A stretch of DNA of 64,000 bases from Flexilinea flocculi (GTDB lineage Bacteria > Chloroflexota > Anaerolineae > Anaerolineales > Anaerolineaceae). Shown here piece by piece: positions 6,057 to 30,127 of the stretch (position 1 is its first letter; each line of letters begins with the position of its first letter). A program made the position numbers and the translations under genes. The notes under the pieces were generated by a model. That model searched no databases and was not told where the DNA came from. It saw nothing but the letters and a program-made list of their open reading frames with translations. The stretch is taken from NCBI RefSeq assembly GCF_001192795.1, contig NZ_DF968181.1:1850974-1914973 (forward strand), given 5' to 3'.

Positions 6057-6129
6057 GGGCCTGTAGCGCAGTTGGGAGCGCGCTTCAATCGCACTGAAGA
6101 GGTCGGGGGTTCGAATCCCCCCAGGTCCA
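6057..6129 (+). tRNA. tRNA-Ala (anticodon CGC)
   Basis: 73 bases with all four stems. The anticodon stem CTTCA/TGAAG encloses loop ATCGCAC, giving anticodon CGC. The acceptor stem GGGCCTG/CAGGTCC contains the G3:U70 pair that identifies tRNA-Ala. The T arm reads GGGGG-TTCGAAT-CCCCC. CCA is not encoded. Confidence 0.95.
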
Positions 6130-6173
6130 CTTCAGATCGGCTCCTTAGATTATGAAGATAAAGTAAATTTTTT

Positions 6174-6246
6174 GGGCCTATAGCGCAGTTGGGAGCGCGT
6201 CTCAATGGCATTGAGAAGGTCGTGAGTTCGAATCTCACTAGGTCCA
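6174..6246 (+). tRNA. tRNA-Ala (anticodon GGC)
   Basis: 73 bases. The anticodon stem TCTCA/TGAGA encloses loop ATGGCAT, giving anticodon GGC. The acceptor stem GGGCCTA/TAGGTCC again has G3:U70. It lies 44 bases after the CGC isoacceptor and is probably co-transcribed with it, with a terminator directly behind. The D-arm is identical to that of its neighbour, which suggests duplication. Confidence 0.95.
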
Positions 6247-25267: not shown

Positions 25268-25726
25268 ATGGAAAAAACATTTGTATGTATTAAACCGGAT
25301 GGGGTTCAACGCGGGTTAATTGGTGAGATCGTCAAACGGTTTGAAAATCGCGGTTTTACTCTCGTTGCAGCGAAATTCATGCTTGTGAGCAGGGAATTAG
25401 CAGAAAAACATTATGCAGAACATGTCGGGAAAGCTTTTTACAACGGTTTGGTCAACTATATCACTTCAGGGCCAGTCTTTGCAATGGTTTGGGAAGGAGA
25501 AGATGTAATTAAAGGAGTACGGCAGACGGTTGGTGCGACAAAACCGATTGAAGCTGCCCCCGGAACAATTCGACATGATTTTGCAGCAAAAATGGATCGC
25601 AATCTGATTCATGCCTCCGATGCAATACCGACTGCTGAAAGAGAAATAGCGCTTTGGTTCCGTCCGGAAGAGATGGTTGAATGGACCAGTATTACGAATC
25701 CCTGGGTATTTGGAAAAAACTCATAA
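25268..25726 (+). CDS. ndk: Nucleoside-diphosphate kinase
   Basis: 152 residues. It opens TFVCIKPDGVQRGLIGE; the phospho-accepting His115 lies in RNLIHASDA, preceded by PGTIRHDF. Transfers phosphate from NTPs to NDPs. The stop codon is back-to-back with that of dut on the other strand (25721-25726), so no terminator separates the two converging genes. Confidence 0.96.
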   Translation: MEKTFVCIKPDGVQRGLIGEIVKRFENRGFTLVAAKFMLVSRELAEKHYAEHVGKAFYNGLVNYITSGPVFAMVWEGEDVIKGVRQTVGATKPIEAAPGTIRHDFAAKMDRNLIHASDAIPTAEREIALWFRPEEMVEWTSITNPWVFGKNS

Positions 25727-26158
25727 TTTTTTTTGTTCTGCAATGCCGCCAGTTTCTCCTCGTGGAGATTTTTCTTTATACAAGTCTTGGATCGAAACCT
25801 CGATAGCAGTCGGGGTTTCGATCGGAACAACCAATAATTGGGCGACCGCCTGTCCGGAACTGATTTTTAAATATTCTGACAGAATATTGAACACCTTAAT
25901 CAGTACTTCCCCTTGATAACCAGAATCCACCACACCACCCCCAAGTAAAAAATTATTCCTGCTTTTTGGAAGAACCAGCCCCACATAGCTTTTAGGAATA
26001 TCAACGGATATTCCAGTTCCAATGATATGGTAATTATGCGGAGCAATATTTACTTCTTCGATGGAATATAAATCGAACCCTGCATCGTCAGGATTTTTTC
26101 GAGTCGGAATTTTTGCATCCCGGGATAATTTTGCAAATCTAAGTTCGTTGATTGTCAT
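25721..26158 (-). CDS. dut: dUTP diphosphatase
   Basis: 145 residues with the five dUTPase motifs in order: DDAGFDLYS, PKSRNN, GGGVVDSGYQGEVLI (catalytic Asp, uracil-discriminating Tyr), AQLLVVPI and the C-terminal RGETGGIA, which closes over the site. Motif 5 usually reads RGxGGFGS, so Thr and Ile replacements are notable. Removes dUTP and supplies dUMP. It shares nucleotide metabolism with ndk, but they converge and overlap only at their stop codons. Confidence 0.92.
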   Translation of the reverse strand: MTINELRFAKLSRDAKIPTRKNPDDAGFDLYSIEEVNIAPHNYHIIGTGISVDIPKSYVGLVLPKSRNNFLLGGGVVDSGYQGEVLIKVFNILSEYLKISSGQAVAQLLVVPIETPTAIEVSIQDLYKEKSPRGETGGIAEQKKL

Positions 26159-26258
26159 ATCACACCCTCATAAATTTCATTTCCATGTATTTATATCATC
26201 AGTAATTCAAAACTAAGGAAAGCAGTTTTTGCGATTTGAAATTCGGGGGGAAAAATAT

Positions 26259-26306
26259 AATATTGTGATGTTTTTTTTATGCCTTACGTAAAAACGTCAC
26301 AATATT
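26259..26306. repeat. Intergenic palindrome 8
   Basis: AATATTGTGATGTTTTT (26259-26275) pairs with 26290-26306 with one T-G wobble. The left flank GATTTGAAATTCGGGGGG and right flank GAAGAATATTCCCCAAAT fit the first flank subtype. It ends 42 bases before the -35 box of the threonine-type operon. Confidence 0.85.
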
Positions 26307-26347
26307 GAAGAATATTCCCCAAATTTTAAATATATGTAACGAATCAT

Positions 26348-26376
26348 TTGACAGTTCTCAGTGAGTAGCATACAAT
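26348..26376 (+). promoter_or_regulatory. Promoter of the lysC-asd-hom operon
   Basis: A consensus TTGACA (26348-26353), 17 bases, then TACAAT (26371-26376). Expected transcription start is near 26383, only about 8 bases before the leader ATG. Confidence 0.8.
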
Positions 26377-26390
26377 ACAATGCAATTATT

Positions 26391-26480
26391 ATGAAAACAT
26401 TAATCCGATTCAACCTCCTCAATACTGCTATGATGACAACCGGTACTGGTACTACCGGTCACTTTCATATACCGAGGTAG
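26391..26480 (+). CDS. Threonine-rich leader peptide (thrL-like)
   Basis: 29 codons from ATG at 26391 to TAG at 26478. Seven Thr codons occur, five of them packed as Thr-Thr-Gly-Thr-Gly-Thr-Thr at 26436-26456. The stop codon lies inside an arm (GAGGTAG) of the downstream alternative RNA structures. This is the layout of amino-acid attenuation leaders such as E. coli thrL. No ribosome site fits before the ATG; with a start near 26383 the message would be almost leaderless. It is too short to be found by length alone; the case rests on codon content and position. Confidence 0.75.
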   Translation: MKTLIRFNLLNTAMMTTGTGTTGHFHIPR

Positions 26481-26553
26481 AACGGTTATTTTTGGATAAA
26501 TCCAATTATTAGAAAATAACAAAACTGCCTCAAAGAGAGGCAGTTTTTTTTTT
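26439..26553 (+). promoter_or_regulatory. Transcription attenuator of the lysC-asd-hom operon
   Basis: Three exclusive pairings can be drawn. (1:2) CTACCGGT at 26452-26459, which contains Thr codons, pairs with ACC-(GA)-GGTAG at 26471-26480. (2:3) GAGGTAG at 26474-26480 pairs with CTGCCTC at 26525-26531, extended by GTTATTTT (26485-26492) with AAAATAAC (26513-26520) and an inner TGGAT/ATCCA. (3:4) the terminator AAAACTGCCTC / GAGGCAGTTTT. A ribosome stalled at Thr codons covers arm 1, frees arm 2 and favours the antiterminator; fast passage to the stop codon favours termination. Pairings are seen in sequence; the mechanism follows the known thr/trp type. Confidence 0.78.
26521..26553 (+). terminator. 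Attenuator terminator hairpin
   Basis: A perfect 11-bp stem (26521-26531 with 26537-26547), loop AAAGA, and ten T in a row. It ends 15 bases before the lysC start. Confidence 0.9.
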
Positions 26554-26568
26554 CCTGAAAGGATATCT

Positions 26569-27999
26569 ATGGAAAAACCCTCTACTATTTTCCCCGATGA
26601 TACGCTCGTAATGAAATATGGTGGAACATCCGTCGGAACAGTCACTGCAATGCGGTCAGCAATCAAGATTATATGTGAAACAAAAAGCGAGCATAAAAAC
26701 CTGGTTGTTGTGACATCTGCGATTTCTGGAGCCACGAACGCTCTGATTCAAAGCGCAGTCGATGCCGCCAACGGCAACAGTTTGACGGCGGAGAAGACAA
26801 CACGGGAATTGACGCTCCGGCATCATGAATTAATCGACAAGCTGGTGAATGATCCCAACAAATGGCTCCAATTAAAAATGGATATTAACCGTCTGCTTTC
26901 TGATTTTATGAATCTCTGCAATGCCATTAAAGTCTTGGGCGAATTGAGTCCGCGTGCTCTGGATACGGTTTCGAGTTTGGGGGAAAGACTGGCTGTTCGT
27001 GTCTTGTCAGCCGGCGTGGAAGCAGCGGGATTTCCATCGAAACCGATCGAATCATCCCAAATCATCATCACCGATAATTGTTTTCAAAATGCAGCACCTG
27101 ACATGGAAGAAACCCGCAAACGCTGTGAAAAAATCATCGTTCCATTATTGAATGATGGAATCATACCGATCATTACCGGTTTCATGGGAGCAACGAAAGA
27201 AGGGGTCATTACAACATTAGGCAGAGGCGGCAGTGATTATTCTGCTTCCATCATTGGTGTTGGACTGAAAGCATCGGATGTTTGGATTTGGACCGACGTT
27301 ACCGGTGTTATGAGTGCCGATCCAAGAATTATTCCAAATGCCAAAACGATTCCCTATTTATCATTTCAGGAAGTTTCCGAAATGGCTTTTTATGGAGCAA
27401 AAGTATTACATCCGAAATCCGTTAAACCTTGTTTAGATAATCACATTGCAATGCGTATCTGCAATACTTTTTTCCCCAAGGAAATTGGAACGATACTGGT
27501 TGACAATCAAATCATGAATGATTCCGGGAAAATTAAAGCAGTTACATCCTCCAACGGATATAAACTCGTCACAGTATCCGGGGCTGGTATGGATAACGGG
27601 ATGAATGTATCAGCGAGAATTTTAAACGGCATCGTAGATGCTGGTGTAAATGTTTCAATGATCATTGAAAGCTCATCCGAGCAATCATTGTGCCTGCCCA
27701 TTCCTATAAAAGATGTAGAAAAAGTAACCAGGATACTGAAAGATATCCTGGAAAGAGAAATATCCAGAATGGATATTGAAGACATCGAAATCAGTGAAAC
27801 AGTCGACATTATTACAGTGATTTGCCCCGGACTGAAACAAAACCCGATCATTATCGCAAAAGTATTGAATCAGCTTGATGAAAAAGGTTTCAAAATTAAA
27901 GCGCTTTCCTATGGAGCATCGGATGTTTCATTAAACATCATTATTACATCCAATGACACAAAAGAAGCACTAAAAACAATTCATGAATTAATCAATTAA
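26569..27999 (+). CDS. lysC: Aspartate kinase
   Basis: 476 residues, monofunctional. The kinase domain opens VMKYGGTSVG (Tyr replaces the usual Phe), has the TLGRGGSDYSA substrate site and the WIWTDVTGVMSADP segment. The last 160 residues hold two ACT regulatory domains (VSGAGMDNGMNVSARILNGIVDAGVNVSMI, shown here by name and split across residues 325-350), so allosteric control by an end product is likely. AAAGGA precedes the ATG. First gene after the Thr attenuator; with asd and hom it covers aspartate to homoserine. Confidence 0.95.
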   Translation: MEKPSTIFPDDTLVMKYGGTSVGTVTAMRSAIKIICETKSEHKNLVVVTSAISGATNALIQSAVDAANGNSLTAEKTTRELTLRHHELIDKLVNDPNKWLQLKMDINRLLSDFMNLCNAIKVLGELSPRALDTVSSLGERLAVRVLSAGVEAAGFPSKPIESSQIIITDNCFQNAAPDMEETRKRCEKIIVPLLNDGIIPIITGFMGATKEGVITTLGRGGSDYSASIIGVGLKASDVWIWTDVTGVMSADPRIIPNAKTIPYLSFQEVSEMAFYGAKVLHPKSVKPCLDNHIAMRICNTFFPKEIGTILVDNQIMNDSGKIKAVTSSNGYKLVTVSGAGMDNGMNVSARILNGIVDAGVNVSMIIESSSEQSLCLPIPIKDVEKVTRILKDILEREISRMDIEDIEISETVDIITVICPGLKQNPIIIAKVLNQLDEKGFKIKALSYGASDVSLNIIITSNDTKEALKTIHELIN

Positions 28000-28033: not shown

Positions 28034-29092
28034 ATGAAAAACAAAATTCCGGTAGCAGTTTTGGCAGCAACAGGCAGTGTAGGCCAGCGTTTTATCAGTC
28101 TATTAGAAAATCATCCTTGGTTTGAAGTCGTAGAAATCACAGCTTCAGATCGTTCTGTCGGAAAAACTTATCAGGAAGCATGCCATTGGCTGATCACAGA
28201 CCCAATGCCGGAATCGGTGAAAAACCTGACTCTTCTCCCAACAGAAGCCAATTCTCTTCAGAAATCAGTTTTCGCCTTTTCTGCACTTCCTGCCGACATA
28301 GCAAAAAATGTTGAGCCGGATTTCGCAAGAAAAGGTATTTATGTTTGTTCAAACGCATCAGCGTATCGGAAAGATCCTTTGGTACCGATTCTGGTTCCTG
28401 AAGTCAATGCGAATCATTTGGATATTTTAGATATACAACAGAAAACTTATGGCTGGAGCGGAGGAATCATTACCAATCCGAATTGCACAACCTGCGCGTT
28501 TGTTGTACCATTAAATGCAATCGACAAGGCATATGGCGTTCAGAAAGCGATTGTTTTTTCAATGCAGGCTATATCCGGAGCCGGGTATCCTGGTGTTGCT
28601 TCGATGGATATCATTGACAATGTAATTCCATACATCGGAGGAGAAGAAGAAAAAGTTGAATACGAACCGACAAAAATCATGGGCAGTTATCAAGATGGCA
28701 AAATCAGCTTGCATCCAATGGTAATTTCTGCTCACACAAACAGAGTCGCGGTTGTTGATGCGCATACGATTTGTCTCTCCTTTTCAACCAATCAGAAAGT
28801 ATCAAAGGACAATATCATTTCTGTACTGAAAAATTACCAAATGCCTGAAATATGTATCGGATTGCCATCCTGCCCTGATAGAGGAATTGTTTATCACGAA
28901 GCGGATAACCGTCCGCAGCCTCGACTGGACAGGAATTTGGGCAGAGGAATGTCAACCAGTGTTGGAAGGATTCGAGAGGATTCAATCTTTGATTTCCGCA
29001 TGGTTTCTCTGTCCCATAATACCATCATGGGAGCCGCAGGAGGATCGATTTTTAATGGTGAATTATTGGCAAGAAGAAAATTTGGCTTCTGA
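28034..29092 (+). CDS. asd: Aspartate-semialdehyde dehydrogenase
   Basis: 352 residues, of the archaeal/fungal-type branch judging by length and motifs. NADP-binding start [14 protein letters not shown], catalytic Cys in [12 protein letters not shown], and the conserved SGAGYPGV and HTNRV segments. Reduces aspartyl phosphate to the semialdehyde. Lies 34 bases after lysC with a GGGAG-type ribosome site. Confidence 0.94.
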
Positions 29093-29110
29093 AAATGCAG
29101 GAGAAGAGTG

Positions 29111-30127
29111 ATGAAAAAAGTAAGGATTGGAATAATCGGTTTTGGAAATGTTGCATATGGTTTGGTAAAGATCCTACAAGAAAAGAAGGATTTTTACATG
29201 AAAGAATTTGGATTGGAGTTTTTGGTAACAGCAGTGGTTGACCTAAAAAAAGGCACAGCTTACAATCCGGAAGGAATTAACCTGGAAGCGTTGATCAATC
29301 ATACATCTCTTAATGAAATCCCAAATGCAGATCATCCCAACTGGAATGCAGTCAATATGATTCATAACGCTGAGACAGACGCTATTGTCGAATTAAGTTA
29401 TACAAATCTTAAAACAGGTGAACCCGCAGTACTCCATATACGGGAAGCGATTCTTTCTGGAAAACATGTGGTAACCAGTAACAAAGGTCCTGTCGCTCTT
29501 CATTATCGAACGTTGCATACGCTTGCACGAGAAAATAATGTTCAGTTTGGGATTGAGGGAACTGTAATGAGCGGCACACCCACATTACGGCTTGGAACAG
29601 AGATTCTGCGTTCATCAGGGGTCAATGCGATTCAAGGGATATTCAACGGAACAACAAATTTCATCCTCTCAGAGATGGAAAATGGTTCAACGTATGCAGA
29701 AGCATTGCTATTAGCACAGGAATTTGGATATGCGGAAGCGGATCCATCCGGAGATGTGGAAGGTTTTGACACAGCGGGTAAGGTTGCCATTCTGTCTCAA
29801 TTAATTTTCGGAGAGACGATTAATCCTTCTGAAATTGAGAGAGAAGGTATAACCGATATCACACCGGATGACATCCTCGCTGCAAAAAAGATGAATTCCA
29901 GATGGAAACTGATCGGTTCCGTCAAAAAAGTTGATAATAAGATACTTGCTTCTGTTAAACCGGTCATGATTCCATATTCGAACGCCTTGGCTAATGTGAT
30001 GGGAGCGATGAATGCAATTGAATATGAGACCGAACTTTTAGGGCCTGTATTCTTGATCGGTCCAGGAGCTGGAAGAATTGAAACAGGATATGCAATTTTG
30101 CAGGATCTGATTTCAATTTTCAATTAG
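29111..30127 (+). CDS. hom: Homoserine dehydrogenase
   Basis: 338 residues. NAD(P)-binding GIIGFGNVAYGLV, TSNKGPVALH, the GTPTLRLG and GIFNGTTNFILSEM segments, and the catalytic ADPSGDVEGFDTAGK. It lacks the C-terminal ACT domain of longer enzymes, so feedback control must come from elsewhere, such as the attenuator. The start at 29111 is chosen because AGGAG lies 7 bases upstream; a GTG at 29108 also exists. thrB and thrC are not in the window. Confidence 0.95.
   Translation: MKKVRIGIIGFGNVAYGLVKILQEKKDFYMKEFGLEFLVTAVVDLKKGTAYNPEGINLEALINHTSLNEIPNADHPNWNAVNMIHNAETDAIVELSYTNLKTGEPAVLHIREAILSGKHVVTSNKGPVALHYRTLHTLARENNVQFGIEGTVMSGTPTLRLGTEILRSSGVNAIQGIFNGTTNFILSEMENGSTYAEALLLAQEFGYAEADPSGDVEGFDTAGKVAILSQLIFGETINPSEIEREGITDITPDDILAAKKMNSRWKLIGSVKKVDNKILASVKPVMIPYSNALANVMGAMNAIEYETELLGPVFLIGPGAGRIETGYAILQDLISIFN

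Follow-up and report, generated by a model that had tools for sequence, protein, structure and literature searches.

A predicted ribosome-mediated attenuator with threonine codons ahead of lysC-asd-hom in a Flexilinea-like member of Chloroflexota

The thr attenuator of E. coli controls the thrABC genes, and T-boxes sense uncharged tRNA. Vitreschak et al. (2004) reportedly predicted an attenuator of thrA in Pasteurellales that uses Thr, Ile and Met codons. Their case is said to resemble the one presented here in placing Met alongside Thr codons upstream of a gene for aspartate kinase/homoserine dehydrogenase, and to differ from it in coming from Proteobacteria, in preceding the bifunctional thrA and in also using Ile.

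In the portion of PMC2965389 available to us, its authors knew of no leader-peptide systems shown beyond Proteobacteria and Actinobacteria before their own case in Firmicutes, the atypical ermC leader excepted. As far as the accessible parts of three further articles go, threonine operons of Actinobacteria are without a conserved RNA regulatory structure (PMC1262725), the regulation treated in Gram-positives is that of histidine (PMC9413887), and the sole relevant mention for Chloroflexi concerns noise that arises where a group is represented by few genomes (PMC4833913). We found no description of leader attenuation in Chloroflexota in the open literature, a scope that takes in few subscription papers and leaves absence from print unproven.

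Here we analyse a 64,000-nucleotide stretch of DNA (the window, by which we mean the whole stretch) and describe an element that is very probably a ribosome-mediated transcription attenuator of lysC-asd-hom. We computed its anatomy, its two mutually exclusive hairpins, the covariation of its arms in relatives and its Thr bias. A preliminary description of this DNA had read the element as a threonine attenuator; our analysis supports that reading and amends it in two respects, a 1:2 pairing that is doubtful in the window and, across the class of related leaders, Met as a likely second signal.

Anatomy and folding of the leader region

The source genome of the window comprises 3.51 Mb on three contigs. 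The window's aspartate kinase is 93% identical to its counterpart in a MAG named Flexilinea sp. and, placed by lysC alone, the host is best taken as a Flexilinea-like member of Anaerolineaceae, Chloroflexota. The leader region and the operon contain the following features.

26348–26376, + strand: sigma-70-type promoter TTGACA-17-TACAAT, with 11/12 consensus matches (TTGACA 26348–26353, TACAAT 26371–26376, 17-nt spacer)
26391–26480, + strand: predicted leader ORF of 29 codons, MKTLIRFNLLNTAMMTTGTGTTGHFHIPR, from ATG 26391 to TAG 26478–26480; its Thr block is kept in relatives
26439–26459, + strand: predicted hairpin within the Thr/Gly codons, −9.1 kcal/mol, which out-competes the 1:2 pairing proposed earlier
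26474–26480, + strand: predicted antiterminator arm 2, GAGGTAG, which includes the leader stop (from folding, shuffles and relatives)
26485–26520, + strand: predicted 9-bp antiterminator extension and apical hairpin (from fold energy)
26521–26553, + strand: predicted intrinsic terminator 3:4 and T run (arm 3 26521–26531, arm 4 26537–26547, T run 26544–26553)
26559–26563, + strand: AAGGA ahead of the lysC ATG, which we take from the sequence to be the Shine-Dalgarno-like motif of lysC
26569–27999, + strand: lysC, aspartate kinase with ACT domains (PF00696 1.8e-47, PF22468, PF13840; TIGR00657 above cut-off)
28034–29092, + strand: asd, aspartate-semialdehyde dehydrogenase (TIGR00978 406.7 bits, cut-off 301.2)
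29108–30127, + strand: hom, homoserine dehydrogenase (NF004912 386.6 bits, cut-off 373)

The consensus promoter and the 29-codon, Thr-rich leader were both recovered as first described. Seven of the leader codons specify Thr (codons 3, 12, 16, 17, 19, 21 and 22) and two specify Met (codons 14 and 15); the 29-aa peptide has no family match in Pfam or NCBIfam. Immediately 5′ of the leader promoter lies a 98-bp imperfect palindrome (26234–26331), which has 14 more partial matches in its own genome (72–86% identity, E ≤ 0.01) and looks like an interspersed MITE- or REP-like element. A tandem pair of tRNA genes occupies 6057–6246 of the window, on the + strand.

The 3:4 terminator, a claim of the preliminary description that stands, is an 11-bp stem (26521–26547) with ten T at 26544–26553, four of them inside the stem. 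Its folding energy is −16.2 kcal/mol (z −5.3), and none of 200 dinucleotide shuffles was equal or better. The 2:3 antiterminator pairs 26474–26480 with 26525–26531 (7 bp) and continues in an extension of 26485–26493 with 26512–26520; it reaches −20.5 kcal/mol (z −5.9), again with 0/200 dinucleotide shuffles equal or better. The antiterminator itself thus agrees with the earlier claim, except that its extension measures 9 bp and not 8 bp, and the leader stop codon UAG (26478–26480) indeed falls inside arm 2. The entire window leader likewise outdoes all of its shuffles (z −4.25).

We modelled the effect of the ribosome by masking its footprint and computing pair probabilities at the point where arm 3 has emerged and arm 4 is not yet transcribed. 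This mask model describes an equilibrium with an assumed footprint, not kinetics, and a ribosome sitting on arm 2 abolishes 2:3 in it by construction. Placing the A-site at Thr16, Thr19 or Thr22 led the model to predict 7.0 of the seven arm 2:3 pairs in the window leader, as compared with 0.0 for an A-site at the stop codon. The identical script, applied as a control to thrL of E. coli K-12, returned 8.9–10.0 pairs for the stalled ribosome and 0.0 at the stop. In the ribosome-free state, the model gave 7.0 2:3 pairs for the window and 5.4 for E. coli thrL. Because 2:3 forms in the window without a ribosome, efficient translation of the leader would be needed to hold the operon off, although no Shine-Dalgarno motif was flagged for the window leader.

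The preliminary description had also proposed a 1:2 pairing (26452–26480), and this part did not hold up. The pairing can be drawn (−5.5 kcal/mol), but it loses to the hairpin at 26439–26459, and we rejected it as the main alternative structure in the window. The stretch 26440–26485 folds equally well in 138 of 200 shuffles, and the expected number of 1:2 pairs was 0.00–0.09 in all six modelled states, that is, the ribosome-free state and five ribosome positions. Since 1:2 is doubtful in the window according to these models, an untranslated leader should be read through rather than super-attenuated. In relatives such as L022, L087 and L093, the mask model predicts that 2:3 is blocked in the ribosome-free state and that a stalled ribosome releases it.

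Ribosome stalling, termination and a response to Thr are what we infer for the window leader. Transcription would start a few bases 5′ of the leader AUG, and the ribosome would load with little 5′ UTR. When Thr-tRNA is scarce, the ribosome would stall at Thr codons 16–22 and leave arm 2 free to form the antiterminator with arm 3; the terminator would then not form and lysC-asd-hom would be transcribed. When Thr-tRNA is plentiful, the ribosome would reach the UAG in arm 2 and cover this arm, arm 3 would pair with arm 4, and RNA polymerase would stop at the U run.

Threonine and methionine codons upstream of lysC in relatives

We collected 178 upstream regions of lysC, comprising 65 from the 66 family places, 109 elsewhere in the order and four named loci; three of the 178 have less than 250 nt of upstream sequence. 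The family sample derives from the 58 of 147 genomes that matched at E 1e-40, and the sample from the order outside the family consists of 109 loci from 108/165 matching genomes, 40 of these loci being hand-chosen. Before counting, we dropped L010–L019, from other phyla, and L001–L005, which duplicate places or contigs represented by L020, L021, L022, L025 and L026. One of the 66 family places (G051, where the contig starts within the gene) was also dropped, as were 4 of the 54 matches in a search outside the family, G164, G223, G236 and G241, in which the gene was incomplete or the contig ended. L006 and L130 have an identical leader on contigs of equal length and look like one locus counted twice.

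A strong intrinsic terminator within 215 nt precedes lysC in 84 of the 178 loci, and 72 of these 84 contain a Thr-rich leader ORF, defined as a short ORF in which 10 codons include 4 or more for Thr. By comparison, such an ORF occurs in 4 of the 94 loci without a strong terminator (Fisher p 1e-31, for loci that are related and therefore non-independent). One of these four, L050, has the leader and a shorter terminator stem that falls below the terminator score. Shuffling each of the 84 regions 20 times gave an expectation of 4.7 loci with a Thr-rich ORF, as opposed to the 72 observed, and in L008 (p 0.11) and L096 (p 0.08) the Thr content is not singly beyond shuffles. L042 and L177 are above the numerical cut but doubtful: they are included in the counts over 84 and 94 loci, in the shuffle expectation and in the 72-locus duplex test below, and left out of the 70-locus sets used for swapped arms and for the mask model.

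The 12 terminator loci below the Thr cut comprise six with 3 Thr per 10 codons, a Met-rich ORF or both (L086, L102, L106, L110, L167 and L171), one T-box (L077) and five in which we found the terminator and no Thr or Met leader (L097, L133, L146, L172 and L185). The preliminary description would, by its own account, be contradicted by relatives that keep the terminator and lose the Thr codons; the 72 loci show the codons retained, whereas the last five run the other way.

In the window's genus, the leader is present in all eight members with a lysC match (L020–L026 and L050); six further members gave no lysC match at the same threshold (E 1e-40). The asd gene follows lysC in 40 of the 47 leader loci with 300 nt or more of sequence downstream and also in 34 of the 60 leader-free loci with 900 nt or more, so that its presence does not set leader loci apart. 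In six loci, all from the window's genus, hom lies behind asd. Outside the order, among 40 places hand-chosen from the listing, a terminator with a Thr-rich ORF was found in L205 and L206, from the same class, and in L233, from another class, while the other 37 were without.

Thr codons in these leaders are frequently accompanied by Met codons. The Thr blocks of 69 distinct leaders include 200 residues other than Thr, of which 74 are Met (37%) and seven are Ile; tested against 2.5%, this Met share has a binomial p of 1e-64, for leaders that are related. Met occurs inside the Thr block in 42 of the 69 leaders. With the same cut of at least 4 per 10 codons in the 84 loci, the next excesses after Thr were those of Met (9 loci vs 0.1 in dinucleotide shuffles) and Tyr (8 vs 0.3). 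Homoserine is the common precursor of Thr and Met, and a joint Thr/Met signal makes sense because the operon makes this shared precursor. The codon content thus suggests that the leader class probably senses Thr together with Met, and in the wider class a shortage of Met-tRNA would probably also release the operon. The window itself has no Met within the Thr block and a Met-Met directly before it; in its genus, L021, L022 and L050 retain one Met before the block and L023–L026 none. A Met signal in the window itself is weak.

Alternatively, these leaders might be pure threonine attenuators, with Met codons as a signal-free by-product of, for example, ACN-ATG repeats or a hairpin constraint. The Met-free block of the window would be as expected from this, and so would the 27 of 69 leaders without internal Met (e.g. 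L006, L067 and L079–L081). Against it stand the proportion of Met among the non-Thr block residues, the 42 leaders with internal Met and the nine Met-rich loci where 0.1 were expected, and we therefore regard a Thr-only signal as possible but rather unlikely.

Arm pairing, leader geometry and other explanations

To judge whether the 2:3 pairing is kept in relatives, we used a simple duplex in the 72 loci, over which the mean z was −2.0. In 40 of them the duplex outperformed 143 or more of the 150 shuffles, whereas 32 fell short of p < 0.05. When native arm pairs were compared with swapped ones in 70 loci, the native mean was −3.59 and the lowest mean in 2000 permutations −1.07; in 30 of the 70 loci the native arm was within the best 5% of unrelated arms. 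Conservation of 2:3 is thus borne out by these 40 loci and by the compensatory changes described next, and is not significant in the remaining 32.

We aligned 21 sequences from a single related group, hand-chosen for similar arms, and drew the structure on the first member. In this alignment, 92.6% of the cells are paired for 2:3, with 23 double-change cells vs a shuffled mean of 7.9, and 97.4% are paired for 3:4, with 21 double-change cells vs 7.4. Sliding the structure by 1–3 columns left 30–61% of cells paired and 0–2 double-change cells, a comparison in which the unslid version is favoured because the structure was drawn on the first member. Five pairs of 2:3 show a double change, a number reached by 55 of 500 shuffles, and six pairs of 3:4, reached by 2 of 500; the number of pair types was not above shuffles for either helix. 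Arms 2, 3 and 4 therefore covary among the 21 sequences. In the window's genus, arm 3 is constant (CTGCCTC) and arm 2 is either GAGGTAG or GAGGCGG, both of which pair with it. By eye, L078–L081 (genus g36) have a CATCAC/GTGATG-type hairpin behind the Thr block and, at the stop codon or close to it, one of the GTAGA/TCTAC or GATAGA/TCTATC type; these hairpins are possibly pause or protector elements.

A promoter score of at least 8 was obtained in 63 of 79 related leader loci, and in 38 of these 63 the nearest in-frame ATG lies 7–14 nt behind the −10 box, with a peak at 10–11 nt; the window's ATG lies 14 nt behind it. Transcription usually starts 5–9 nt from the −10 box, so these gaps predict a 5′ UTR of a few nt. 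A Shine-Dalgarno-like motif at the in-frame ATG behind the promoter was seen in 8 of the 79 loci, and L006 and L009 have a longer leader with a Shine-Dalgarno. Judged from the position of the −10 box, the leader ORF would have a near-leaderless start.

Arm 2 contains the stop codon in the window; in 25 of 72 loci, its end lies 15–21 nt short of the last base of the stop codon. In the mask model, a stalled ribosome allows over two 2:3 pairs more than a ribosome at the stop does in 49 of 70 loci. A further 18 of the 70 show no gain, partly because arm 2 lies before the stop and is left free by a ribosome positioned there (as in L134, L140 and L142), and partly because 2:3 is scant in every state (as in L123, L152, L159 and L193). 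In loci with arm 2 inside the ORF, termination should depend on when the ribosome passes and not on its parking at the stop.

It is very unlikely that translation of the leader as such exerts control, through Rho, reinitiation or a protein, combined with a trans action of the Thr-rich peptide. Although a trans-acting leader peptide has a precedent in peTrpL of Sinorhizobium meliloti, according to the accessible part of PMC7298713, the sequence outside the Thr/Met block varies between genera by eye, and relatives repeatedly show an intrinsic terminator together with an alternative pairing. Likewise, it is highly improbable that an ordinary terminator of an upstream transcript and an unrelated small gene lie side by side, uncoupled. 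Terminator-like sites are common here (4 in a scan of 1.2 kb, vs 0.9 in shuffles), but the ORF upstream of the leader (25721–26158) is on the opposite strand, the promoter intervenes between it and the terminator, the Thr-rich ORF and the terminator co-occur in relatives, and covariation links the terminator to arm 2, which lies within or close to the ORF. At the window leader, a T-box or metabolite riboswitch is barely credible, since the leader has no Rfam family at gathering score and six T-box matches in its own genome all lie elsewhere, despite these matches and a T-box at the same position in one related genome.

The six matches in the window's own genome (L239–L244) have E ≤ 0.001, and two exceed the gathering score. 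Membership of the leader in Thr_leader (RF00506) was rejected at 21 bits vs a gathering score of 55, and a sub-threshold Phe_leader match (27.7 bits, gathering 55) was given no weight. The T-box of the related genome, G052, belongs to RF00230 and lies directly before lysC (L077, 5480–5714, minus strand; 102.1 bits, gathering 93). Its alignment has ACC (Thr) at the apparent specifier position, which we assigned from T-box anatomy; the sequence is thus apparently that of a Thr-specific T-box in place of the leader attenuator. A shallow search for further leader attenuators in the window's own genome, covering the surroundings of hisG (L194) and of two genes for TPP enzymes (L195 and L196), returned no terminator and no Rfam match, and short ORFs around hisG hold at most 2 His per 10 codons. 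The same genome, 97% complete, has no match to PF00425 (Chorismate_bind; trpE/pabB/menF type) at E ≤ 0.001, whereas 14 of 14 control genomes have one.

Comparison with known systems

For lysC-asd of Anaerolineales as a whole, we propose, at even odds, a near-leaderless attenuator that senses Thr and Met together, that is evolutionarily interchangeable with a Thr T-box and that in many genera has arm 2 within the ORF, so that transit of the ribosome and not its release would decide termination. The attenuator described here would extend ribosome-mediated attenuation of amino-acid synthesis to Chloroflexota, with dozens of diverged natural examples whose common features can reveal what the mechanism requires. 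It also offers a dual Thr/Met sensor, both inputs of which are separately testable, and, with the apparently Thr-specific T-box of G052, a naturally occurring swap of tRNA sensors at a single operon. Classical ribosome-mediated attenuation is known; the novelty lies in the phylum, in the Thr/Met signature and in the predicted near-leaderless start.

The T-box (RF00230) of G052 occupies the same position before lysC as the attenuator and apparently also serves Thr. T-boxes bind tRNA directly and have no leader peptide, unlike the leader attenuator described here. The window leader resembles trpL of S. meliloti, as presented in the accessible part of PMC7298713, in having a regulatory ORF that lacks a Shine-Dalgarno and, by prediction here, lies very close to the 5′ end of its RNA; that system concerns Trp in Alphaproteobacteria and its RNA begins at the ATG, whereas the start proposed here derives from the −10 box.

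The window leader also resembles E. coli thrL (RF00506), which has a leader with a run of Thr codons before an aspartate kinase gene, a stop codon positioned at arm 2, 2:3 and 3:4 hairpins that exclude each other, and the same behaviour in the mask model. Unlike thrL, which combines Thr with Ile, the class described here mixes Thr with Met, would control lysC-asd(-hom), has a very short predicted 5′ end and belongs to another phylum; in its other genera, arm 2 often lies well before the stop. The window leader would thus work like Thr_leader, yet it scores below the threshold of that Rfam model.
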